DNA from: Thauera propionica
GTDB taxonomy: Bacteria > Pseudomonadota > Gammaproteobacteria > Burkholderiales > Rhodocyclaceae
Reading direction: 5' to 3'
Assembly: GCF_002245655.1 (NCBI RefSeq)
Contig: NZ_NOIH01000026.1
Coordinates: forward strand, 62,001 to 126,000
Length of the DNA: 64,000 bases
Under the pieces are notes generated by a model. That model did not search any database. It was not told the origin of the DNA and saw only the letters and a program-made list of their open reading frames with translations. Positions 35,770 through 51,435 of this stretch are shown here, in pieces. Numbering within the stretch: the stretch's first letter is position 1; the number at the start of each line of letters is the position of its first letter. The position numbers were made by a program, and so were the translations under genes.

Positions 35770-38553
35770 TCATGATGCACTGCCGGCGCAGGCGGTCTGC
35801 GCGCTGGCAGCCATGCGCCGCAAGGCCGGCAGGCACGAACCGCAGGACGTGCCGCACTTCAGCTTGTCCTGCACCTCACCAAGACTCGCGCCCGACGCCA
35901 GCGCCGCCTCGATGGCGCCGGCGCTGATGCCGTGGCAGCTGCACACGATGCGCCCCGCCGCGCCATCGGCGGCTCCGAGCCCGGTCGGCGGCACGGCGAG
36001 CGGCGCGAAAAGCCAGGGACGCAACATGCCGAGCGGCTCGCCAGAGACCATCAGTGGCAGCAGCCAGTCCACGGCCGCGACTTCGCCCGCGAAGCGCAGC
36101 GCCAGCACCTGGCCGTCCTCGACCCGGGCGCGCTTGACGACGCCGCGCCGCGCATCGGCAAAGGCCAGCGGCGCCTGTGCCGCGTCGCACCCGAGAAGCT
36201 GATCGATCTCCTGCAGCACCGCATCGTCGGCCGGGGCCGCATGCGCCAGACGCAACTGGAAGACGATGCGCTCACGGCCGGCCAGACTGATCGAAGCATG
36301 GTCGAAGCCGGCCAGCAGCGGTTGCAGCGCACTGCGCCAGTGCGCCGCCTGCCCCGCATCACGGGCGATAGCCACCCATGCCGCCTGCCATCCGGGCACG
36401 TAGGGCGCGATCGACACCGCGGCCTGCTTGAGCGCCGGCTGCTTCGACACCGGATCGCTGAGCGGCACCGTCAGAGCGTTGGCACCCGCCTGCGCCAGCG
36501 TGCCGGCGCCCCAGTGCATCGGCAGCCAGGCCTGCCCCGGCGCGACGCTGTCATCCGAGGCGAGCGGCAGCACCACCTCGCCGCGCCGACCCGCCAGGCG
36601 CACCAGCTTGCCCACCTGCAGCCCGCGACGAAGCAGATCGACCGGATTCAGGGCGACCTCAGCGCGCGGCGTATGCCCCCACAGCAGCGGCACCTTGCCG
36701 GTGCGGCTCATGCCGTGCCACTGGTCGCGCAGCCTGCCCGTCAACAGCACCAGCGGGCGGCGCGCATCGACCGCTTCCGGCAACAGCGCATGGCGCACCG
36801 GAAAGGCGACGGGCGCGAAGCGCGCACGGCCGTCCCCGGTCGGGAACACGCCGTCGGCAAAGAGTCGCGCCGTTCCGCCCGTGGCGCCTGCGGGGAACGG
36901 CCACTGCTGCGGGCCGCAGGCATCGAGCAGCGCGTGCGAGAGCCCGCTCATGTCACAGTCACGGCCGGCGCTCAGGGCGACATGCTCGGCGAACACCGCC
37001 GCTTCGTCCGCCCAGTCGAAGCCGCCGCCAGCCGCGTCCCCCTCCCCGGCCAACCGCCGCTGCAAGCGCCGCGCGAAGTCTGCGGCAATCGCCCAGTCCG
37101 GACGCGCCTCGCCCGGCGCCGGAACCGCGGCCACCAGACGCGACACGCGCCGCTCGGAGTTGGTCACCGTGCCGGTCTTCTCGCCCCAGCTCGCCGCTGG
37201 CAGCAACAGATCGGCGAAGGCGGCGGTTTCCGTATCGGCATAGGCCTCCTGCACGACGACGAACTCCGCCGCCCGCAGCGCCTCATGGACCCGCGCCTGA
37301 TCGGGCAAGGAGTGCGCCGGGTTGGTGCACGCAATCCACACCGCCTTGACCCGGCCATCACCCAGCGCCTCGAACAACTCCACCGCCGTCAGGCCCGGTC
37401 GTTCCGGCAGGGAAGGCACACCCCACGCCGCGGCGAGTTCGGCGCGATGCGCGGGGTTGGCGAGCTCGCGATGGCCCGGCAGCAGGTTGGCCATCGCCCC
37501 CACTTCCCGCCCGCCCATCGCGTTGGGCTGGCCTGTGAGCGAGAACGGGCCCGCACCGGGACGGCCGATCTGGCCCGTCGCCAGATGCAGGTGGATCAGC
37601 GCCGCGCTGTTGGCCGTGCCGTGGTGCGACTGGTTGAGGCCCTGGCACCACAAGGACAAGGCTGCCCTGGACTGGCCGAAGCGGCGCGCCGCCTCGGCGA
37701 TGCGTTCGGCCGGCACGCCACAGGCGGCCGCGACATTGCCGGGCGAGCACTCGGCGAGCTGGCTGCGCAGCGCATCGAAGCCGCCGGTGTGGTCGCGGAT
37801 GAAGTCGCGGTCGACCAGGTCCTCCCACAGCAGCACGTGCAGCATTGCGTTGTACAGCAGCAGGTCCGAGCCGGGCGCGATCTGCAGGTGCAGGTCGGCA
37901 AACTCGGCGGTCTCGGTACGGCGCGGATCAACCACCGTGATCGTCAGCGCCGGGTTGGCCTTCTTCGCGTCCTCGATGCGACGGAACACGATGGGGTGCG
38001 CCCATGCGGTGTTGGAACCGGCAATCAGCAGATGGTCGGCCGCCGCAAGGTCCTCGTAGCTGCACGGCACGCTGTCGGCACCGAGCGTGGCCTTGTAGCC
38101 GGCCACGGCGCTCGACATGCACAGCCGTGAATTGGAGTCGATGTTGTTGGTGCCGACCAGCGCCCGTGCCAGCTTGTTGAAGACGTAGTAGTCCTCGGTC
38201 AGCAGCTGGCCCGAGACATAGAAGGCCACGGCATCGGGACCATGGCGACGGATGACGTCGGCGAAGCGCCCGGCGGCCGTATCGAGTGCCAGATCCCAGC
38301 CCACGCGCCGGCGCGCCGCGCCGCGGGCATCGCGCATCTCCGGATGGCGCGCGCGCCCCGCCGCGCCCGTCGTCAGATGCAAGGTCGAACCCTTGGTGCA
38401 CAGACGGCCGAAGTTGGCCGGATGCGTGCGGTCGCCGCGCACGCCGACGATGCGGTCGCCCTCGTGCTCGATGATCACGCCGCAGCCCGTGCCGCAGTAA
38501 CAGCACACGGAACGCGTTTCGCGCAGCGCGGGGGACGATTCGGTCGTGTTCAT
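35770..38553 (-). CDS. nasA: Assimilatory nitrate reductase, molybdopterin catalytic subunit with C-terminal BFD domain
   Basis: 927 residues. The N-terminal [4Fe-4S] motif CCYCGTGCG...RLCTKG binds the cluster next to bis-MGD; the molybdopterin domains follow (GSNTAWAHP, GQPNAMGGREVG, SWGEKTGTVTNSERR). A C-terminal bacterioferritin-associated-ferredoxin-like [2Fe-2S] domain (CSCHGISAGAIE...KCGTSCGSCLPAL) is fused, as in Klebsiella NasA. Cytoplasmic, reduces nitrate to nitrite. No separate NasC-type electron-transfer subunit is encoded here, so the BFD domain may take electrons from another donor. Last gene of the nrt-nir-nas operon, 46 bp after nirD. Confidence 0.95.
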   Translation of the reverse strand: MNTTESSPALRETRSVCCYCGTGCGVIIEHEGDRIVGVRGDRTHPANFGRLCTKGSTLHLTTGAAGRARHPEMRDARGAARRRVGWDLALDTAAGRFADVIRRHGPDAVAFYVSGQLLTEDYYVFNKLARALVGTNNIDSNSRLCMSSAVAGYKATLGADSVPCSYEDLAAADHLLIAGSNTAWAHPIVFRRIEDAKKANPALTITVVDPRRTETAEFADLHLQIAPGSDLLLYNAMLHVLLWEDLVDRDFIRDHTGGFDALRSQLAECSPGNVAAACGVPAERIAEAARRFGQSRAALSLWCQGLNQSHHGTANSAALIHLHLATGQIGRPGAGPFSLTGQPNAMGGREVGAMANLLPGHRELANPAHRAELAAAWGVPSLPERPGLTAVELFEALGDGRVKAVWIACTNPAHSLPDQARVHEALRAAEFVVVQEAYADTETAAFADLLLPAASWGEKTGTVTNSERRVSRLVAAVPAPGEARPDWAIAADFARRLQRRLAGEGDAAGGGFDWADEAAVFAEHVALSAGRDCDMSGLSHALLDACGPQQWPFPAGATGGTARLFADGVFPTGDGRARFAPVAFPVRHALLPEAVDARRPLVLLTGRLRDQWHGMSRTGKVPLLWGHTPRAEVALNPVDLLRRGLQVGKLVRLAGRRGEVVLPLASDDSVAPGQAWLPMHWGAGTLAQAGANALTVPLSDPVSKQPALKQAAVSIAPYVPGWQAAWVAIARDAGQAAHWRSALQPLLAGFDHASISLAGRERIVFQLRLAHAAPADDAVLQEIDQLLGCDAAQAPLAFADARRGVVKRARVEDGQVLALRFAGEVAAVDWLLPLMVSGEPLGMLRPWLFAPLAVPPTGLGAADGAAGRIVCSCHGISAGAIEAALASGASLGEVQDKLKCGTSCGSCLPALRRMAASAQTACAGSAS

Positions 38554-38599
38554 GCTCAGCCTCGGTGGCGATGTGCGTTGCGGGTCGGACGGGCCGCCC

Positions 38600-38911
38600 T
38601 CAGAGGGCGAGCCACACCTGTCCGTCCTCGACCTTGACCTCGAAGCGCCCGCAGTGCCCCACGTCGGGCGCCACGGCCTGGCCATCCTCGAGACCGATGT
38701 TCCAGCCATGCAGCGGGCAGGTGACCTTGCGCCCATGGACGATGCCCTGCGACAGCGGCCCGCCCTTGTGCGGGCACTTGTCGTGCAGCGCGAACACCTC
38801 GTCCTCGGCGTTACGGAACAACGCGATGTCGCCCCCCGTCGGGCGCCGCACCACACGCGCGCCCAGCGGCGGAATCTCGTCCAGCGGGCAGATATGCTTC
38901 CAGTTGCTCAT
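38600..38911 (-). CDS. nirD: Nitrite reductase (NAD(P)H) small subunit
   Basis: 103 residues with a Rieske-type fold: CPHKGGPL and CPLHGWNIGLEDG carry the Cys-x-His and Cys-x2-His ligands, so unlike E. coli NirD (which lost them) this one should hold a [2Fe-2S] cluster. It lies 27 bp after nirB and 46 bp before nasA. Confidence 0.93.
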   Translation of the reverse strand: MSNWKHICPLDEIPPLGARVVRRPTGGDIALFRNAEDEVFALHDKCPHKGGPLSQGIVHGRKVTCPLHGWNIGLEDGQAVAPDVGHCGRFEVKVEDGQVWLAL

Positions 38912-38938: not shown

Positions 38939-41416
38939 TCAGGCCTCGACCGTGAGCGGAATGAACTGCTTGACCGCCCGGGCCTCGCGGCTGGTCTGCC
39001 AGGGGTCCCGGGCGTCCTTCAGCGCGAACAGCAGGCGCGCATGCAGCGCCTTGCGGCTGTCAGCGTCCTCGACGACCTTGCGTTTCACGTACTCCAGGCC
39101 GACGCGCTCCAGCCAATGCACCGTGCGCTCCAGGTACCAGCCTTCCTCGCGGTAGAGCTGCAGGAAGGCAGCGGCATACTCCATGACTTCCTCGTCGCTG
39201 CCGACCTTGCACAGGAACTGCGCCACCTCGGTCTTGATGCCGCCGTTACCGCCGACGTAGAGCTCGTAGCCCGAGTCGACGCCGATCACACCCACGTCCT
39301 TGATGCCGGCCTCGGCACAGTTGCGCGGGCAGCCCGACACCGCTAGCTTGACCTTGTGCGGCGCATACATGTCGAACAGCATCCGCTCGAGCTTCACGCC
39401 CATGTCCATCGCCAGCTGGGTGCCGAAGCGGCAGTGCTCGGCGCCGACGCAGGTCTTCACGGTGCGGATCGACTTGCCGTAGGCGTGGCCCGAAACCATG
39501 CCGGCGGCGTTGAGGTCCGCCCAGATCGCCGGCAGGTCCTCCTTCCTGATGCCGAGCAGGTCGATGCGCTGGCCGCCGGTCACCTTCACCGTGGGGACCT
39601 TGTATTTCTCGGCAGCGTCGGCGATCGCGCGCAGCTCGGAAGGCGTCGTCAGCCCGCCCCACATGCGCGGCACGACCGAGTAGGTGCCGTCCTTCTGGAT
39701 GTTGGCGTGGGCGCGCTCGTTGATGAAGCGCGACTGCGGGTCGTCCTGGGCCTCGTGCGGCCAGGACGAGATGAGGTAGTAGTTGATGGCCGGCCGGCAC
39801 TTGTCGCAACCGTTGGGCGTGCGCCAGTTCAGCGTCTCGAACACCGCCTCCTTGGTCGTCAGGTGGTGGGCGAAGATGGCCTCGCGCACCACCTTGTGCG
39901 AGTGCTCGGTGCAGCCGCACACCGGCTTGTCTGCGGCGCTGACCGACTGGTAGGCGCCGCCGACCGTGGACGCGAGGATCTGCTCGACCAGGCCGGTGCA
40001 GGAGCCGCAGGACGAAGCGGCCTTGGTGTGCTTCTTGACCTCGTCGAGCGTGAACAGCCCTTTTTCCTTGATCGCCTTGACGATGGTGCCCTTGCACACG
40101 CCGTTGCAGCCGCAGACTTCGGCGCTGTCCGGCATGCTGGCGGCGCGGTTCTCGCCCTTGTGCCCGACGTCCCCCAGGTTGTTCTGCCCGAACATCAGGT
40201 GGTCGCGGATCTCGTGGATGTCCTGCCCGTCCCTCATCAGCTGGAAGTACCAGGCGCCATCGGCGGTGTCGCCATACAGCACCGAGCCGACGATGCGGTC
40301 GTTGCGCAGCACGATGCGCTTGTACACCCCGCCCTGGCGGTCGTGCAGCACGATTTCCTCGGTGTCCGCACCGCCGCTGAAATCACCGGCCGAGAACACG
40401 TCGATGCCGGTCACCTTGAGCTTGGTCGAGGTCACCGAGCCCTCGTAGCGGCCGATGCCGAAGTTGGCGAGGTGGTTGGCGCACACCTTGCCCTGCTCGA
40501 ACAGCGGTGCGACGAGACCATAGGCGATGCCGCGGTGGGCCACGCATTCGCCCACCGCGTAGATGCGCGGATCGGTGACGGTCTGCAGCGTGTCCGACAC
40601 ATGGATGCCGCGCACCCGCCCGCTGCCGCAGTAAAGGCCGGCGGACTCGGCGAGCGCGAAGTTCGGGCGGATACCGGCCGCGACCACCACCAGGTCGGCG
40701 GGAATCTCCATGCCGTCCCTGAAGCGCACCGCGCCCACACGCGCCGTCATGTCACCGTCTTCGTTGCGCGCCGGCAGCAGCGCCTCGGTCTGGCGGGCGA
40801 GCAGGAACTTCATGCCCTTGGCCTCGAGCGAGGCCTGCAGCATGTCGGCCGCGGCCTGGTCGAGCTGGCGCTCCATGATCCATTCGCCGATGTGCACCAC
40901 GGTGACGTCCATGCCGCGCAGCATCAGGCCGTTGGCGGCCTCCAGGCCGAGCAGGCCGGCACCGATGACCACCGCGTGCCGGTACTTGCCGGCGGCCTCG
41001 ATCATCGCCTCGGTATCGGCAATGTCGCGGTAGCCAAGCACGCCCGGCAGGTCGTTGCCGGGAATCGGCGGAATGAAGGGGGTCGAGCCCGTGGCGAGCA
41101 GCAGGCGGTCGTAGTCGGCCTCGGTGCCATCCTCGGCCATGACCTTGCGCCTGACGCGGTCGATCTTCACCACCTTGCTGCCCGCGTGCAGCGTGATGCC
41201 GTTGTCGCGGTACCAGTCGAGATCGTTGAGCATGATCTCGGGCAGGCTCATTTCGCCCGCCAGCACCGGCGACAGCAGGATGCGGTTGTAGTTGCCGTGC
41301 GGCTCGGCGCCGAACACGGTGATGTCGTACAGATCGGGAGCGAGCTTGAGCAGTTCCTCGATCGTGCGCACCCCGGCCATGCCGTTGCCGACGAGGACGA
41401 GTTTCTGTTTCTTCAT
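38939..41416 (-). CDS. nirB: Nitrite reductase (NAD(P)H) large subunit
   Basis: 825 residues. FAD/NAD(P)H domains come first (LVLVGNGMAGVRTIEEL; HAVVIGAGLLGLEAAN), then a BFD-like [2Fe-2S] module (CGCNGVCKGTI...SSCGSCTGLV, about 420-470) and a siroheme/[4Fe-4S] domain with CVGAEHCRFGTQ and VSGCPRNCAEAG, whose cysteines hold the coupled cluster. It reduces nitrite to ammonium with NAD(P)H. Together with nirD and nasA it completes nitrate-to-ammonium assimilation. Siroheme synthase is not in the window. Confidence 0.96.
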   Translation of the reverse strand: MKKQKLVLVGNGMAGVRTIEELLKLAPDLYDITVFGAEPHGNYNRILLSPVLAGEMSLPEIMLNDLDWYRDNGITLHAGSKVVKIDRVRRKVMAEDGTEADYDRLLLATGSTPFIPPIPGNDLPGVLGYRDIADTEAMIEAAGKYRHAVVIGAGLLGLEAANGLMLRGMDVTVVHIGEWIMERQLDQAAADMLQASLEAKGMKFLLARQTEALLPARNEDGDMTARVGAVRFRDGMEIPADLVVVAAGIRPNFALAESAGLYCGSGRVRGIHVSDTLQTVTDPRIYAVGECVAHRGIAYGLVAPLFEQGKVCANHLANFGIGRYEGSVTSTKLKVTGIDVFSAGDFSGGADTEEIVLHDRQGGVYKRIVLRNDRIVGSVLYGDTADGAWYFQLMRDGQDIHEIRDHLMFGQNNLGDVGHKGENRAASMPDSAEVCGCNGVCKGTIVKAIKEKGLFTLDEVKKHTKAASSCGSCTGLVEQILASTVGGAYQSVSAADKPVCGCTEHSHKVVREAIFAHHLTTKEAVFETLNWRTPNGCDKCRPAINYYLISSWPHEAQDDPQSRFINERAHANIQKDGTYSVVPRMWGGLTTPSELRAIADAAEKYKVPTVKVTGGQRIDLLGIRKEDLPAIWADLNAAGMVSGHAYGKSIRTVKTCVGAEHCRFGTQLAMDMGVKLERMLFDMYAPHKVKLAVSGCPRNCAEAGIKDVGVIGVDSGYELYVGGNGGIKTEVAQFLCKVGSDEEVMEYAAAFLQLYREEGWYLERTVHWLERVGLEYVKRKVVEDADSRKALHARLLFALKDARDPWQTSREARAVKQFIPLTVEA

Positions 41417-41452: not shown

Positions 41453-42244
41453 TCAGGCAGCGTGCTTGAGCTGCTTCTGGTACAGGAACTCCATGATCGC
41501 GGCGCGGTACTCGGCGAAGTCCGGGTCGTGCGCCAGCGCCAGGCGATCGCGCGGGCGCTCGAGCTTCACCTCGAGGATCTCGCCGATGGTGGCCGCCGGA
41601 CCGTTGGTCAGCATCACCACGCGGTCCGACAGCAGCACCGCCTCGTCGACGTCATGCGTGACCATCACCATCGTCGCGCCGGTGTCGGACAGGATCTTCA
41701 TCAGCTCGTCCTGCAGGCGGGCGCGGGTCAGCGCATCGAGGGCGCCGAAGGGCTCGTCCATCAGCAGCACGCGCGGCTGCATCGACAGCGCACGGGCGAT
41801 GCCGACGCGCTGCTTCATGCCGCCCGAGATCTCGTGCGGGAACTTGGTCTCGGCATGCGACAGCCCGACCAGCGCCAGCGCGTCGTGGGTGCGCTGCTTG
41901 AGGCTGGCGCGCCCTTCCTTGCGGCCGAACACGCGCTCGACCGCGAGGTAGACGTTGTCGTAGCAGGTCAGCCACGGCAGCAGCGAGTGGTTCTGGAACA
42001 CCACCGCGCGCTCGGGACCGGGTCCGGCGATCTCGCGGCCGTCGCACAGCATCACGCCTGTGCTCGGCGTGGTGAGGCCGGCGATCAGGTTCAGCAGCGT
42101 CGACTTGCCGCAGCCGGAGTGGCCGATCAGCGCGATGCTCTCGCCCTCGTGGATGTCGAGCTGGATGTCGCGCAGTGCGACGAAGCGGCCCTTCTTGGTG
42201 TCGAAGCTCTGCCCGACGTCCTGGATTTGAACGGTCTTCTTCAT
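41453..42244 (-). CDS. nrtD: Nitrate/nitrite ABC transporter ATP-binding protein
   Basis: 263 residues. Walker [10 protein letters not shown], signature ISGGMKQR, Walker B VLLMDEPF and the H-loop VTHD are intact. It lacks the NrtA-like C-terminal domain of cyanobacterial NrtC, so it is the NrtD/NasD type. Only 17 bp from nrtB and 36 bp from nirB, co-transcribed. Confidence 0.94.
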
Positions 42245-42261
42245 GGTCCTGTCTCCTGCGC

Positions 42262-43194
42262 TCAGCGGCTTTCGTAGTTGAAGCGGCGCGCGACCAGCAT
42301 CAGCGCCTGTTCGAGCAGCAGGCCCACTACGCCGATGACGAAGATCGCGATGATGATGTGCTCGACCTTGAGGTTGTTCCACTCGTCCCACACCCAGAAA
42401 CCGATGCCCACACCGCCGGTCAGCATCTCCGCGGCGACGATCACCAGCCAGGCGGTGCCGATGGACAGGCGGATGCCGGTGAGCATGTAGGGCAGCACGG
42501 CCGGAAACAGGATCTTGGTGAAGATCTTCCATTCCGACAGGTTCAGGACGCGGGCGACGTTGAGATAGTCCTGCGGGATGCGGGTGACGCCCTGGGCGGT
42601 GTTGAGGATCATCGGCCAGATCGAGCAGATGAAGATCGTCCAGGTCGCGGCCGGGTCGGCGCGCTGGAACACCAGCAGGCCGATCGGCAGCCAGGCCAGC
42701 GGCGACACCGGGCGCAGCAGACTGATGATGGGGTTCATCATCTTCGACAGCACCGCGAAGCGCCCCAGCATGAAGCCCGCCGGGATGCCCACCAGCGCGG
42801 CAATGCCGAAGCCGATGCCGACGCGCTCGAGCGAGGCCAGCACGTTCCAGCCGATGCCCTGGTCGTTCGGCCCTTCGCGATAGAAGGGGTCCGAGAACAG
42901 CGCCACCGCGGCCTCCCAGGTCTTGGCCGGCGTGGGGATGCCACCGCCGTTGGCCGTGCCGAGGTGCCACAGGCCGACCAGCAGGGCCAGGCCGATGATG
43001 GGCGGCAGCAGGGCGGCCGCGAGCGCGCGCAGGGCATCGCCCGCCCTTTCCGCGAACCCCGGACCGCTCGGCACCACGACCGCCGGCGTGATCGGTTTGA
43101 CTTCGGCACGGCCGCCAGCGGCCTCGCCTTCCCTCGCGGTCCCGCTTGCGGGCGCCAGGCCCGTGCTGCGCTCCGCCATTGCGACGACAGTCAT
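42262..43194 (-). CDS. nrtB: Nitrate ABC transporter permease
   Basis: 310 residues from the ATG at 43194, which has GGAGGAA 7 bases upstream. About six membrane segments of the BPD_transp_1 fold; the EAA-type loop is in [21 protein letters not shown]. The N-terminal 35 residues are a hydrophilic Ala/Pro extension. It follows nrtA by 28 bp. Confidence 0.93.
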
Positions 43195-43222
43195 TTCGAG
43201 TTCCTCCGCCTTGGCCACGACA

Positions 43223-44482
43223 TCAGGCCTTGATCTTGAAGCCGCCGGCATAGGCCGCCGGGTTCGAGCCGTCCCACACCACGCCGTCGATCAGCGTCGC
43301 GCTGCGCATCTCGCTCGCTGGCACGGCGACACCGACCGCCGCGGCCGCCTGCTTGTAGACGTCGGTGCGGTTGATGGCCTTCGCCACCGCGAGGTAATCG
43401 ACGTCCCTGTCGAGCAGGCCCCAGCGACGGTGCTGGGTCAGGAACCACATGCCGTCCGAGAGGTAGGGGAAGGTCACCGCGCCGTCCCTGAAGAACTTCA
43501 TCGCGTTGGCGTCCGCCCACTTCCTGCCCAGACCGTTGTCGTACTGGCCGAGGATGCGGCCCTCGATGACATCGACGTCGGTATTGACGTAGGAGCGCGC
43601 CGCGATGACCGCAGCGGTTTCCTTGCGATTGGCGTCCGAGGCATCGATCCAGCGCGAGGCGTCGAGCACGGCAGCCGTCAGGGCACGCGCGGTGTTGGGG
43701 TGCTTCGCCACCCAGTCGGACGTGGTGCCGAGCACCTTCTCCGGGTGGTCGGTCCAGATGTCCTGCGTGGTAACGGCGGTGAAGCCGACGCCGTCGATGA
43801 TGGCGCGCTGGTTCCACGGTTCGCCGACGCAGAAGCCGTGCATGTTGCCGACCCGGGCGTTGGCCACCATCTGCGGCGGCGGCACGACGATGGCCTTGAC
43901 GTCCTGGAACGGGTGGATGTCGTTGGCCGCCAGCCAGTAGTACAACCACATCGCATGCGTGCCGGTGGGGAAGGTCTGGGCGAAGGTGTAGCTGCCGGGG
44001 CTGCCGGCGGCGACCACCTTCTTCAGGGATGCGCCATCCACCGCACCCTTTTCCTTCATCTGGGTCGAGAGCGAAATCGCCTGGCCGTTGTTGTTGATCG
44101 ACATCAGCACGGCCATGTCCTTCTTCGGCCCGCCGATGCCCAGATGCACGCCATACACCAGCCCGTAGAGCACGTGCGCCGCATCCAGTTCACCCGACAC
44201 CAGCTTGTCGCGCACCGACGCCCAGCTCGCCTCCTTGCTCGGGATGATCTTGATGCCGTACTTCTCGTCGAACTTCTTGACTGCGGCCATCACCACCGAG
44301 GCACAGTCGGTCAGCGGGATGAAGCCGACCCTGATCTCCTTTTTCTCGGGGGCGTCCGAGCCGGCCGCCCACGCACCGCCGGGGAACAGGCCGGGCAACA
44401 GGGCGGCCACGCCGGCGGCTGCGCCCGCCTTGATGAAGCCGCGGCGCGACAGTTCGGGCGTTTCGGTCTTGAGCGATTTCAT
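43223..44482 (-). CDS. nrtA: Nitrate ABC transporter substrate-binding protein (Tat-exported)
   Basis: 419 residues from the ATG at 44482 with AAGGAG 8 bases upstream. A twin-arginine signal (LSRRGFIKAGAAAGVAALLPGL) is present, with a cleavage region around AWAA. The VGFIPLTDCASVVMAAVKKF start of the mature domain is typical of NrtA/NasF nitrate binders. It is the first structural gene of the operon, behind the attenuated leader at 44508-44645. Confidence 0.94.
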   Translation of the reverse strand: MKSLKTETPELSRRGFIKAGAAAGVAALLPGLFPGGAWAAGSDAPEKKEIRVGFIPLTDCASVVMAAVKKFDEKYGIKIIPSKEASWASVRDKLVSGELDAAHVLYGLVYGVHLGIGGPKKDMAVLMSINNNGQAISLSTQMKEKGAVDGASLKKVVAAGSPGSYTFAQTFPTGTHAMWLYYWLAANDIHPFQDVKAIVVPPPQMVANARVGNMHGFCVGEPWNQRAIIDGVGFTAVTTQDIWTDHPEKVLGTTSDWVAKHPNTARALTAAVLDASRWIDASDANRKETAAVIAARSYVNTDVDVIEGRILGQYDNGLGRKWADANAMKFFRDGAVTFPYLSDGMWFLTQHRRWGLLDRDVDYLAVAKAINRTDVYKQAAAAVGVAVPASEMRSATLIDGVVWDGSNPAAYAGGFKIKA

Positions 44483-44507: not shown

Positions 44508-44562
44508 AAAAGCAAAAGGCGCCCATCCCGCACTCCGCACGATGCGAAGGGGAATGGACGCC
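44508..44562 (-). terminator. Conditional intrinsic terminator in the nrtA leader
   Basis: A 12-bp stem (GGCGTCCATTCC with GGGATGGGCGCC, including two G-T pairs) spans 44518-44562 on the minus strand and is followed at once by TTTTGCTTTT. It ends 26 bases before the nrtA ATG, so transcription from the upstream promoter must read through it. The 5' arm overlaps hairpin P2 (44556-44569), so P2 and the terminator cannot form together. Confidence 0.85.
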
Positions 44563-44614
44563 GTTGTCCTGTGTTCGAGTCGGTTGTTCGAACGCCAAGC
44601 CCTCGTTGGCTCAG
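44556..44614 (-). ncRNA. ANTAR-type two-hairpin antitermination element
   Basis: Hairpin P1 (44595-44614) has a 7-bp stem CTGAGCC/GGCTTGG closing the hexaloop AACGAG. Hairpin P2 (44556-44569) has a 4-bp stem GGAC/GTCC closing the hexaloop AACGGC. Both loops have A at position 1 and G at position 4, the rule known for RNAs bound by ANTAR proteins. The linker (about 25 nt) can also pair GTTCGA with TCGAAC. NasR, encoded immediately upstream, is the expected binder; holding P2 would block the terminator. Confidence 0.82.
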
Positions 44615-44630
44615 CCTCGCCTTTCCTTAC

Positions 44631-44645
44631 GCATCAAGCGTGCCA
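44631..44645 (-). promoter_or_regulatory. Sigma-54 promoter of the nrtABD-nirBD-nasA operon
   Basis: TGGCACGCTTGATGC on the minus strand matches the -24/-12 consensus TGGCACG-N4-TTGC with one change (A for the first T of TTGC) and exact GG-to-GC spacing. Transcription would start near 44619, only about 5 bases before hairpin P1, giving a leader of about 137 nt. Confidence 0.8.
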
Positions 44646-44722
44646 GGGAAGAGAATTGCCTCGAAACCCGCTTGCTGTCTGGCCTGGAAACGATTCGTCG
44701 CGAAACTCAGGGAAATGCCGCA

Positions 44723-44770
44723 CGCACTGCTGCAGTGCAACAGCCGCGCTCCTCGCACGCCCGTGGTGCG
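44723..44770 (-). promoter_or_regulatory. Two NtrC-like enhancer sites
   Basis: TGCACT-N5-AGTGCG (44723-44739) and a weaker CGCACC-N5-CGTGCG (44754-44770) fit the NtrC dyad TGCACC-N5-GGTGCA. Their centres are about 112 and 143 bp upstream of the predicted start at 44619 and 31 bp (three helical turns) apart, the usual place for NtrC enhancers. They lie between the nasR stop and the promoter. Confidence 0.68.
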
Positions 44771-44831: not shown

Positions 44832-46148
44832 TCAGGGTCTGGCGAGCACATCCGCCAGCGCCAATGTCGCGCCGGCCACCTCGGCCAGGCGACGCCCCTG
44901 GCTCATCGCCGTCTGGCGCAGCAGGCGGTAGGCCTCGTCCTCGGACAGGCCGCGGCAGGACATCAGAAGGCCCTTGGCGCGCTCGATCAGCTTGCGTTCC
45001 TCCAGCGCGGCGCGCGCCGCGTCGAGCTCGTCGCTCATGGCCTGCAGCCGCTGCGACTGGGCGTGGAGGAGATCGACGATGGAGCGCCCCAGGCGCGGGC
45101 CGAGCGGTTCGGCGCCCGGCGCCTCGACCCGCTCGGCGCCTGGCGCCGTGCGGGCGGGCACCGCTTCGTCGGCAAGCTCGCCGCCCATGAGCATCTCCAG
45201 CGGCGCCCGCGGCTCGGATGCGGCGGACAAGGCCTGCAGCAGACTCGCTTGGTTGCGCGCCTCGTCCCGCGTCGCGGCGATCTTGCGCGCGCAGGCCTCG
45301 CCCAGGCCGCGCGCCAGCGCCACCTCGACCTCGTGCAACTGGTCGAGGCGCTGCGAGCAGCACGCGAACCAGCCCTCCGCGCGGGCGGAATCCAATGGCG
45401 CCCCGGGGCCGGACGCAAGCAGCACGCGGCGCAGCCGCTCGAGCTCGGCCAGCGGCATGATGGATTGCAGTGCCTGCCACTGGCGCAGCACCTCGACGCC
45501 GCAGAAGGCCTCGAAGCGCCGGAAGCACTGGGACTGCGCCTCGACCAGGTACTGGATGGCCTGCACGGCATCGGCCGCCGGATGCCCCGCTGCGAATGAC
45601 GCCGCGCCCAGCGCCCGCTCCTGTCCGGCAAACTCCTTGCCCTGCATCAGGTTGAAGAGCGCCACCAGCAGCCGTGAAACCTCCGGGTCCACCGCAACGT
45701 CGGCCGCATCGAACACCAGCGCGAGCAGCGCGCCGACGATCTCGCTGTAACGTGCGGTCGCCGCGTCGGGGCGGCAGCGCTGAGCGGCAACGTCGGCGCG
45801 CACCTCGGGCAAGGCATCGAGCGCATGCAGCGCGAGCGCAATGCGGGTGAACAGCCTGGCGCCGCCCAGCACCGACGCTCCGGCACGCTCGCCGCCCAGT
45901 TCGGGCCGGTCGAGCCAGGCCCGCACCTCGGCCTCCGCCGCCCGGCTGGCATCGAGCTGCGCCTCGCGCTGGGCGCCGAATCGTGCGCCGTCCGACGCGA
46001 GGAAGACATTCGAGGCGCCGCGTTCACGCTGCAGCTGGTGCACGAGTTCGCTCACCGCCTGCACCAGCTCGCAACTGAGCGCGAGCCGTTCGAGATCGTC
46101 GATTTCGCAGCGGCGCGCTGCGAGCAGGAATGCGAGCGCCGTCTTCAT
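44832..46148 (-). CDS. nasR: Nitrate-responsive NIT-ANTAR transcription antiterminator
   Basis: 438 residues from the ATG at 46148, with GGAGG 6 bases upstream. A helical NIT sensor domain (about 25-290; QLQRERGASNVFLAS is its typical start) binds nitrate or nitrite. A C-terminal ANTAR domain (about 375-430; LEERKLIERAKGLLMSCRGLSEDEAYRLLRQTAM) binds hexaloop RNA hairpins. In Klebsiella NasR lets polymerase pass the nasF leader terminator when nitrate is present. Here it lies directly upstream of such a leader. A single-protein NasR system, not the NasS-NasT pair seen in many other proteobacteria. Confidence 0.92.
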   Translation of the reverse strand: MKTALAFLLAARRCEIDDLERLALSCELVQAVSELVHQLQRERGASNVFLASDGARFGAQREAQLDASRAAEAEVRAWLDRPELGGERAGASVLGGARLFTRIALALHALDALPEVRADVAAQRCRPDAATARYSEIVGALLALVFDAADVAVDPEVSRLLVALFNLMQGKEFAGQERALGAASFAAGHPAADAVQAIQYLVEAQSQCFRRFEAFCGVEVLRQWQALQSIMPLAELERLRRVLLASGPGAPLDSARAEGWFACCSQRLDQLHEVEVALARGLGEACARKIAATRDEARNQASLLQALSAASEPRAPLEMLMGGELADEAVPARTAPGAERVEAPGAEPLGPRLGRSIVDLLHAQSQRLQAMSDELDAARAALEERKLIERAKGLLMSCRGLSEDEAYRLLRQTAMSQGRRLAEVAGATLALADVLARP

Positions 46149-46278: not shown

Positions 46279-47019
46279 CTACTTCAGGATCGGCCGCACA
46301 CGCCCGATTTCCTCAACCAGACGCCCGCCCGCCTCGTCGGCCTTGCCCCGCCAGCCGTCGAAGTGCAGCAGTTCGGTCAGCGGCATGCGCTTGAGCCAGC
46401 CGGCCGACTCCAGCTCGGGCTTGTCGTAGAAATGGCTGACGTAGCCGATGCACAGATAGGCGATCGGCACGATGTCCTGCGGAATGCCGAGCGCCTCGCG
46501 CAAGGTCTGCTGGTGCAGGATGCTGACCCAACCCACGCCTAGGCCCTCGGCGCGGGCGGCAAGCCACAGGTTCTGCACCGCGCACACCGCGCTATAGACG
46601 TCCATCGCGCCGATGTGGGTACGGCCGATCACCACCGGGCCGTTGCGGCTGCGGTCGCAGGTGATGCACAGGTTGACCGGCGCCTCGAGGATGCCTTCGA
46701 GCTTGAGCTTGCGATAGGTGTCGCGCTTGCCCTCCTCGAACATCAGCTCAGCCTCGGCATGGGCGGCGCGGAAGTCGGCTTGGATCTTCTGCCGCACTTC
46801 GCGCGAGCGCACGAGCACGAAATCCCACGGCTGCATGAAGCCGACCGACGGCGCATGGTGGGCGGCCGTCAGTACGCGCGCGAGCACCTCGTCCGGAATC
46901 GGGTCGGGCAGGAACTGGCCGCGCACGTCGCGCCGGGTATGGATGGCACGATAGACGGCGGCGCGCTCTTCGGCGCTGAACTGCGGATCGGCCTGGACGG
47001 CCTGCGAAGGACTGCTCAT
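46279..47019 (-). CDS. bluB: 5,6-dimethylbenzimidazole synthase
   Basis: 246 residues from the ATG at 47019 with AAGGGG 7 bases upstream. BluB-specific nitroreductase-like segments: YRAIHTRRDVRGQFLPDPIPDEVL, AHHAPSVGFMQPWDFVLV, and GRTHIGAMDVYSAVCAVQNLWLAARAEGLGVGWVSI. It cleaves FMNH2 with O2 to make the lower ligand of vitamin B12. A cobalamin riboswitch directly upstream confirms the pathway. No other cob gene is adjacent. Confidence 0.95.
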   Translation of the reverse strand: MSSPSQAVQADPQFSAEERAAVYRAIHTRRDVRGQFLPDPIPDEVLARVLTAAHHAPSVGFMQPWDFVLVRSREVRQKIQADFRAAHAEAELMFEEGKRDTYRKLKLEGILEAPVNLCITCDRSRNGPVVIGRTHIGAMDVYSAVCAVQNLWLAARAEGLGVGWVSILHQQTLREALGIPQDIVPIAYLCIGYVSHFYDKPELESAGWLKRMPLTELLHFDGWRGKADEAGGRLVEEIGRVRPILK

Positions 47020-47036
47020 GAAATTCCCCTTGTCGT

Positions 47037-47072
47037 CGAGCAGTGGACAGCCGCCGACCAGGCGGCTGCTCG
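47037..47072 (-). promoter_or_regulatory. Expression-platform hairpin after the cobalamin aptamer
   Basis: On the minus strand AGCCGCC pairs with GGCGGCT around a 5-base loop, and CGAGC at the base pairs with GCTCG. It lies between the aptamer and the bluB ribosome binding site. There is no T run, so control is more likely at translation or by Rho than by intrinsic termination. Confidence 0.5.
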
Positions 47073-47075
47073 ATA

Positions 47076-47246
47076 CGCTTCGGGGCCGGTCTTCCGGCTG
47101 TGGATCATCTCGTCCGGGCGCCTTCCCGGTCCTTGCGGACCAGTGGCTGGGCAAACCTTGCCCGGACAATCCCCATCACGGCGCTGGGCGCGCAGCGGAG
47201 TTGCACCGCTTTCCCGATTCTCCCGCGACTGGCACGGGCACCCCGA
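47076..47246 (-). ncRNA. Cobalamin riboswitch (bluB leader)
   Basis: The minus strand reads GGTGCC...GGGAATCGGGAA-like core, then GTGCAACTCCGCTGC, GCCACTGG, GGGAAGGCGCCCG and the B12-box-like AGCCGGAAGACCGGCC, in the conserved order of the AdoCbl aptamer. The whole lies 57-227 bases upstream of bluB. Ligand binding should reduce bluB expression when B12 is plentiful. Confidence 0.92.
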
Positions 47247-47295
47247 AGCTCGAAGGGCGAGAGATTACCCCAAAGGCAGGCCTCGCCGGAACCGC

Positions 47296-51094: not shown

Positions 51095-51179
<85 letters not shown>

Positions 51180-51350: not shown

Positions 51351-51435
<85 letters not shown>

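Follow-up and report, generated by a model that had tools for sequence, protein, structure and literature searches.

A putative NasR-controlled leader of the Klebsiella nasF kind, with a predicted hairpin in its linker, ahead of the nitrate assimilation operon of Thauera propionica

Control of nitrate assimilation by an RNA leader has been described for nasF of Klebsiella oxytoca, where NasR, a one-component NIT-ANTAR regulator, is paired with two hairpins whose hexaloops carry A at position 1 and G at position 4 (A1/G4), the second hairpin (P2) overlapping the terminator (passages of PMC3369936 and PMC7496416). Passages of PMC5424462 place the Klebsiella nas genes under Ntr control and call nasR mainly gammaproteobacterial. 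A dual hexaloop element with a mutually exclusive terminator is also found in the eut leaders of Enterococcus, with EutV as their regulator (in part of PMC3369931). The linkers between the eut hairpins measure 5-12 nt, and their lengthening abolishes or sharply reduces function (parts of PMC3369931 and PMC8934654). The use that an ANTAR dimer makes of the two hairpins is described differently in parts of these same sources, either as spanning both or as a hand-over between them. Leader curation elsewhere used linkers of 2-25 nt (PMC8164766, in part).

The DNA analysed here, called the window, is a stretch of 64,000 nucleotides from Thauera propionica. On its minus strand, nasR is followed by a 349-bp gap and then by nrtABC-nirBD-nasA, with the following genes:

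44832-46148, minus strand: nasR, putative one-component nitrate-responsive NIT-ANTAR antiterminator (Pfam NIT 2.7e-52, ANTAR 7.9e-20)
43223-44482, minus strand: nrtA-like nitrate-binding protein with a TAT signal, first gene after the leader (Pfam NMT1_2 1.3e-102; AAGGAG precedes the ATG)
42262-43251, minus strand: nrtB-like permease (Pfam BPD_transp_1)
41453-42247, minus strand: nrtC-like ABC ATPase, start approximate (reading frame, without a Pfam scan)
38939-41416, minus strand: nirB, nitrite reductase large subunit (Pfam)
38600-38911, minus strand: nirD-like small subunit, named by inference (reading frame, without a Pfam scan)
35770-38556, minus strand: nasA-like assimilatory nitrate reductase (Pfam Molybdopterin, Fer2_BFD)

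The Pfam scores bear out the NIT-ANTAR gene that had been proposed directly upstream of the leader. Its stop codon ends at 44832, and the ATG at 46148 is the probable start, as the reading frame and a GGAGG ahead of it suggest. The encoded protein matches the solved NasR 4akk (5.8e-42), with alignment of two arginines that we take to be the nitrate site, and is about 80% identical to NasR of Thauera butanivorans and Thauera sp. Sel9. The genome contains this single ANTAR gene, so there is no second one, together with one NtrC above the family cut-off and one RpoN. On its upstream side, nasR adjoins a nitroreductase-family gene (46279-47169), perhaps bluB, which is preceded by a cobalamin riboswitch (107 bits; 47067-47260, minus strand). 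Elsewhere in the window, two tRNA genes lie on the plus strand (51095-51176 and 51351-51432), about 175 bp apart and with the same Rfam score, possibly as a result of a recent duplication.

The gap between nasR and nrtA holds the following elements, among which the linker hairpin, named PL, is a further structure:

44755-44769, minus strand: upstream NtrC-type dyad GCAC-N7-GTGC (sequence motif)
44724-44738, minus strand: downstream NtrC-type dyad GCAC-N7-GTGC, 31 bp from the upstream dyad
44631-44645, minus strand: sigma-54 promoter TGGCACGCTTGATGC (TGGCACG-N4-ATGC), with a predicted start site near 44619
44594-44615, minus strand: hairpin P1, GCTGAGCC-AACGAG-GGCTTGGC, 8-bp stem, hexaloop AACGAG at 44602-44607
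44573-44593, minus strand: linker hairpin PL, 6-bp stem GTTCGA/TCGAAC with a 9-nt loop, abutting P1 and 3 nt from P2
44556-44569, minus strand: hairpin P2, GGAC-AACGGC-GTCC, 4-bp stem, hexaloop AACGGC at 44560-44565, putative antiterminator hairpin
44518-44562, minus strand: intrinsic terminator with a 12-bp lower stem (arms 44562-44551 and 44529-44518), the 5' arm beginning inside the P2 loop
44508-44517, minus strand: T tract TTTTGCTTTT, directly after the terminator

Taken together, these elements point, with a probability of roughly 0.87, to a leader through which NtrC and sigma-54 would start, and NasR would antiterminate, the transcription of the nitrate assimilation operon of Thauera, a spacer role for PL being included in this account. 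Judged by its sequence, the leader is genuine, complete and of the Klebsiella nasF kind, from which we infer switching by NasR; the start site is predicted, and the binding of NtrC and NasR and the response to nitrate would be those expected of the respective families. The two dyads, the promoter, the A1/G4 hairpins and the T tract of the earlier note were all recovered where it had placed them, on the minus strand, and its logic of NtrC, sigma-54 and NasR antitermination is supported at this level. Its distance of about 5 nt between P1 and the start site holds, at 4-5 nt, for a start near 44619.

Sigma-54 promoters follow a TGGCAC-N5-TTGC-like consensus, and a consensus exists for NtrC sites as well. 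The sequence TGGCACGCTTGATGC is the only TGGCAC-N6-TGC match within the window, although 1.22 are expected by chance, and therefore it is its position, not the number of matches, that counts. Its -12 element is ATGC, not TTGC; among 68 NasR leaders described below, ATGC is found in 12 and CTGC in 27. The window has eight GCAC-N7-GTGC dyads against 3.76 expected, a number reached by 5 of 100 shuffles, so a single dyad carries little weight; however, these two are 31 bp apart and beside the promoter. Pairs of dyads 28-33 bp apart were found in 23 of the 68 leaders, other dyads in 30, and none in 15. The locus thus combines a TGGCAC-type box and paired upstream NtrC-type dyads, in a genome with NtrC and RpoN genes.

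The 12-bp terminator overlapping P2 was confirmed in its length and overlap, with the amendment that its stem includes two G-U pairs. Mutual exclusion between P2 and the terminator is also supported by the sequence, the 5' arm of the latter (44562-44551) overlapping P2 (44569-44556). A P1 of 6 bp or more, followed by a linker, P2 and an overlapping terminator, is found at a single place in the window and in none of 60 dinucleotide shuffles, under criteria fixed after the element had been seen. The leader transcript folds with z = -3.56 against shuffles, and the named structures have energies of -24.3 kcal/mol (ON) and -39.7 kcal/mol (OFF). When successive prefixes of the transcript are folded, P1 and the linker hairpin have appeared at 52 nt and P2 at 64 nt, other pairings are predicted at some lengths thereafter, and the terminator displaces P2 by 100-106 nt.

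Thus, a switch of the following kind can be proposed. Under nitrogen limitation, phosphorylated NtrC on the two dyads would activate the sigma-54 promoter, and transcription would yield P1 within about 26 nt, next PL, and next P2. Were nitrate absent, the 12-bp terminator would take P2 and transcription would end at the T tract. In the presence of nitrate or nitrite, NasR would be released from autoinhibition, recruited by P1 and would hold P2, permitting RNA polymerase to read on into nrtABC-nirBD-nasA. The order seen in prefix folding fits recruitment by P1 with stabilisation of P2, in the manner described for EutV and NasR in parts of PMC3369931, PMC8934654 and PMC7496416. Since PL would absorb most of the linker (24 nt), with 3 nt remaining unpaired, P1 and P2 would stay within reach of one NasR dimer.

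The leader was sought at 102 NasR loci, 25 of them from family genomes (the window included) and the other 77 from named records; a small number are incomplete (L104, L106 and L107, with G103 split over contigs), and two pairs are duplicates (L003 = L046, L012 = L078). The finder, which demands a sigma-54 box, hexaloops in both P1 and P2 and an overlapping terminator, accepted a leader at 68 of them, G103, from the genus of the window, having the same leader. Two of the remaining 34 were removed by hand (L068, L091), and weaker criteria show a leader in at least eight of the 34; in Herbaspirillum and at several gammaproteobacterial NasR loci, no leader is seen in the flanks examined. The P2 loop is AACGGC in 45 leaders and AAAGGC in 19, so that the hexaloop conservation suggested as a check is found in 64 of 68. 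The A1/G4 of P1 is no test in these relatives, because the finder required both nucleotides.

Compensatory changes, also suggested as a check, are found in P1 and the terminator. In an alignment of 32 leaders, that of the window included, the four inner P1 pairs show both-side changes in up to 16 rows and are never broken, and the outer two are broken in 3 and 9 rows. Both-side changes occur at 10 of 18 predicted pairs, the upper terminator stem covarying too. The P2 arms, GGAC and GTCC, carry no covariation signal because they are invariant in all 32; the P2 stem of 4 bp in the window extends to 5 bp in several relatives. Three features that mark an ANTAR leader are found here: A1 and G4 in both hexaloops, a P2 that overlaps an intrinsic terminator, and a structure that is conserved and covaries. 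For a further mark, a short linker (5-12 nt in eut, 2-25 nt in the curation of PMC8164766), the value is 24 nt, of which 3 would be unpaired with PL formed, and up to 59 nt in relatives.

Rfam at the gathering threshold placed no family over the leader, and therefore a covariance model, R1 (Infernal), was built from the leaders of relatives; since R1 includes the window sequence, its match in the genome of the window is not independent evidence. At E 0.001, R1 matches 176 of 395 family genomes among the matches listed. Over the genomes G000-G149, again among the matches listed, it is found in 24 of the 25 with NasR, and of the 71 R1-positive genomes 70 also match a complete or partial NasR; the 20 listed genomes that lack any such match are all negative. 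Of the 80 genomes that match NasR or for which an ANTAR-region match is listed, 12 lack R1, and three R1-positive genomes have no ANTAR-region match among the matches listed. The model thus tracks ANTAR genes.

In the genome of the window, a single R1 match is significant, the next best having an E of 0.3. Within the genus, 7 of 17 positive genomes have two or three matches among those listed (e.g., G649, G759, G767). At the locus L040 a leader precedes an nrtC-like gene and a second leader separates this gene from nirB; the window has one leader before nrtABC-nirB. Another member of the genus, G675, has a second nasR copy (C1:1275595-1276742) that matches in several separate pieces and, from its sequence, is likely a pseudogene; the leader of this copy (L178) looks complete.

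The earlier note singled out a NasR version in a betaproteobacterium; that this is special is not supported, NasR being common in the present sample. A NasR match over at least 76% of the protein was obtained in 25 of 150 sampled family genomes, the window's included, among the matches listed, and further NasR proteins occur in named records of Thauera, Azospira, Variovorax and Herbaspirillum. This stands in contrast to the mainly gammaproteobacterial distribution given in the cited part of PMC5424462.

Neither could the leader be kept as a compact example, since its 24-nt linker, with a hairpin of its own that had been overlooked, compares with 2-4 nt in Pantoea deleyi. The least certain step of the explanation is the spacer role of PL, for which the chances appear about even: because a longer linker abolishes eut antitermination, the PL helix would serve to keep P1 and P2 close. 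It is also possible, if on the less probable side, that the leader works exactly as in Klebsiella, with NasR tolerant of many linker lengths and PL incidental, GC-rich linkers folding by chance. The range of linkers among relatives, from 0 to 59 nt, agrees with such tolerance, but the loss or sharp reduction of eut antitermination upon lengthening (PMC3369931 and PMC8934654, in part) argues against it.

The comparison of linkers bears on the choice between these two possibilities. Among 19 related linkers, whose 3' arms were registered by hand, the arms GTTCG/CGAAC are kept in 13 while the insert between them varies from 5 to 27 nt and in sequence; in two others the arms differ but remain complementary (ATCCG/CGGAT and TTGCA/TGCAA), and four have one mismatch each, namely L032 and L149, from near Thauera relatives (outer pair A.C), and L166 and L167. 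This pattern argues against an incidental hairpin. The pairs of the linker hairpin covary in a further set of 13 leaders, of which 12 belong to a single genus having NasT-like ANTAR matches; no pair is broken in more than 3 of the 13 rows. Single sequences give weak support in a fixed-arm shuffle test of the 5-bp linker helix (p 0.0005-0.42), so that the support is comparative.

Folding statistics point in the same direction. When the NasR and NasT leaders are pooled, linkers with a length of 16 nt or more fold better than their mononucleotide shuffles in 16 of 33 clusters (p<0.05; Stouffer 6e-15), although pooled p-values overstate the effect because related sequences are not independent. These clusters were formed by complete linkage with one linker each, in place of a single-linkage clustering that had put 81 linkers into one lump; a looser cut gives 11 of 22. 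Against dinucleotide shuffles, p falls below 0.05 for 15 of 45 distinct NasR linkers. NasR linkers fold at p<0.05 in 15 of 43 cases (median p 0.11), against 3 of 43 for flanks of the same length upstream of the promoter (median 0.53) and 3 of 42 for downstream flanks (median 0.32), which lean to folding too (Stouffer 0.013). The excess over both flanks speaks against chance folding. On the other side, of the 45 distinct linkers with 16 nt or more, 7 have a mononucleotide p above 0.5, a misassigned row among them, and the unpaired linker length, below shuffles in 22 of 33 clusters (Wilcoxon 0.0035), is a weak test. The linker statistics leave out L068, L091 and L088, with wrong or doubtful hairpin assignment, the later ones also L067; L018 was put back by hand with its other P1 assignment.

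At an Ideonella NasR locus from a named record, the linker measures 46 nt (folding p 0.023). An alternative helix between the 3' arms of the linker hairpin and of P1, which in some relatives share the sequence GTTCG, was weighed but rejected for the window, where the P1 arm is GGCTTGGC. A rule by which linker type would follow regulator type (NasR long, NasT short) was also dropped, because long structured linkers occur in a genus with NasT-like matches as well, and short ones in the NasR leaders of Variovorax.

A further explanation, which we consider unlikely, is that PL represents the central one of three hexaloop hairpins, having lost its A1/G4 loop in this lineage, and that NasR or NasT dimers step along hexaloops, any two of which suffice. 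It draws on an order-level sample of 30 loci fetched by the P2 core, 14 of which passed as leaders: 9 of the 14 (L112, L115, L122-L125, L128, L133, L136) have a third A1/G4 hexaloop hairpin upstream of P1, against 0.04 expected from shuffles, and in 8 of the 9 it begins some 9-16 nt past the promoter, as does P1 of the window (gap 15). Moreover, of 28 clusters of long-linker leaders, each represented by one member, 6 show a purine-1/G4 hexaloop in the middle hairpin, where 0.88 are expected and none of 300 shuffles exceeds 4. Instead of a middle hairpin, 15 of 18 short-linker NasR leaders, mostly from Variovorax (L050, L051, L053, L056-L062, L069, L071, L074, L081, L103), carry an additional hairpin ahead of P1 (mostly AGACC..GGTCT), with a promoter-P1 gap of 35-43 nt and linkers of 8-14 nt. 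Against it, the middle loop in the window and its group has 5-27 nt and is not a hexaloop; a strict A1/G4 middle hexaloop occurs in just 2 of 28 clusters, within the shuffle range (0.38 expected; shuffles reach 3); and compact two-hairpin leaders exist as well.

These counts suggest a possible three-hairpin ancestor. A broader proposal, rather unlikely, is that the nitrate leaders of the order would descend from a three-hairpin array, up to three of its members with ANTAR hexaloops, from which lineages kept different pairs, the remaining hairpin acting as a spacer that keeps the NasR or NasT sites close; in the window, the middle hairpin would have lost its hexaloop and kept its helix. If true, such a descent would support the stepwise hand-over of an ANTAR dimer between hairpins.

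That the terminator simply ends transcription of nasR, with P1 and P2 as chance hairpins, is hardly credible: it does lie downstream of nasR on the same strand, but a sigma-54 promoter stands between them, P1 covaries, the nearly invariant P2 core overlaps a terminator in relatives, and the element co-occurs with ANTAR genes.

Returning to the reading preferred here, a NasR-controlled leader with PL as a predicted part of its architecture, the type of switch is already known, and it is the structural variation in the linker that is new. No description of a structured linker or of three hexaloops in ANTAR leaders was found in the titles, abstract openings and term counts of the open-access papers listed. 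The spacing rule, according to the parts of the sources available, stems from eut leaders with linkers of 5-12 nt, and natural variants now exist for testing it: NasR linkers that reach 59 nt and in many cases fold, an enteric one of 2-4 nt, and the order-level leaders with three hexaloops. Searches with a linker limit of 25 nt, as used in the cited part of PMC8164766, could miss real ANTAR leaders.

With respect to known systems, the leader of the window is like Klebsiella nasF in its one-component regulator, its two A1/G4 hexaloops, its P2-terminator overlap and its role in nitrate assimilation. The enteric NasR leader used for comparison was that of Pantoea deleyi (L250), not nasF itself; it differs in having no linker hairpin, whereas the window has a 6-bp one. 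The eut leaders share the dual hexaloop element and the exclusive terminator, but their linkers measure 5-12 nt against 24 nt in the window, and EutV is a response regulator while NasR binds nitrate itself. NasT/NasS leaders have the same kind of RNA element, and the leaders that lie beside NasT-like ANTAR matches in relatives fit the model, some with long structured linkers; nevertheless, NasT/NasS is a two-protein sensor, and the window has one protein, NasR.
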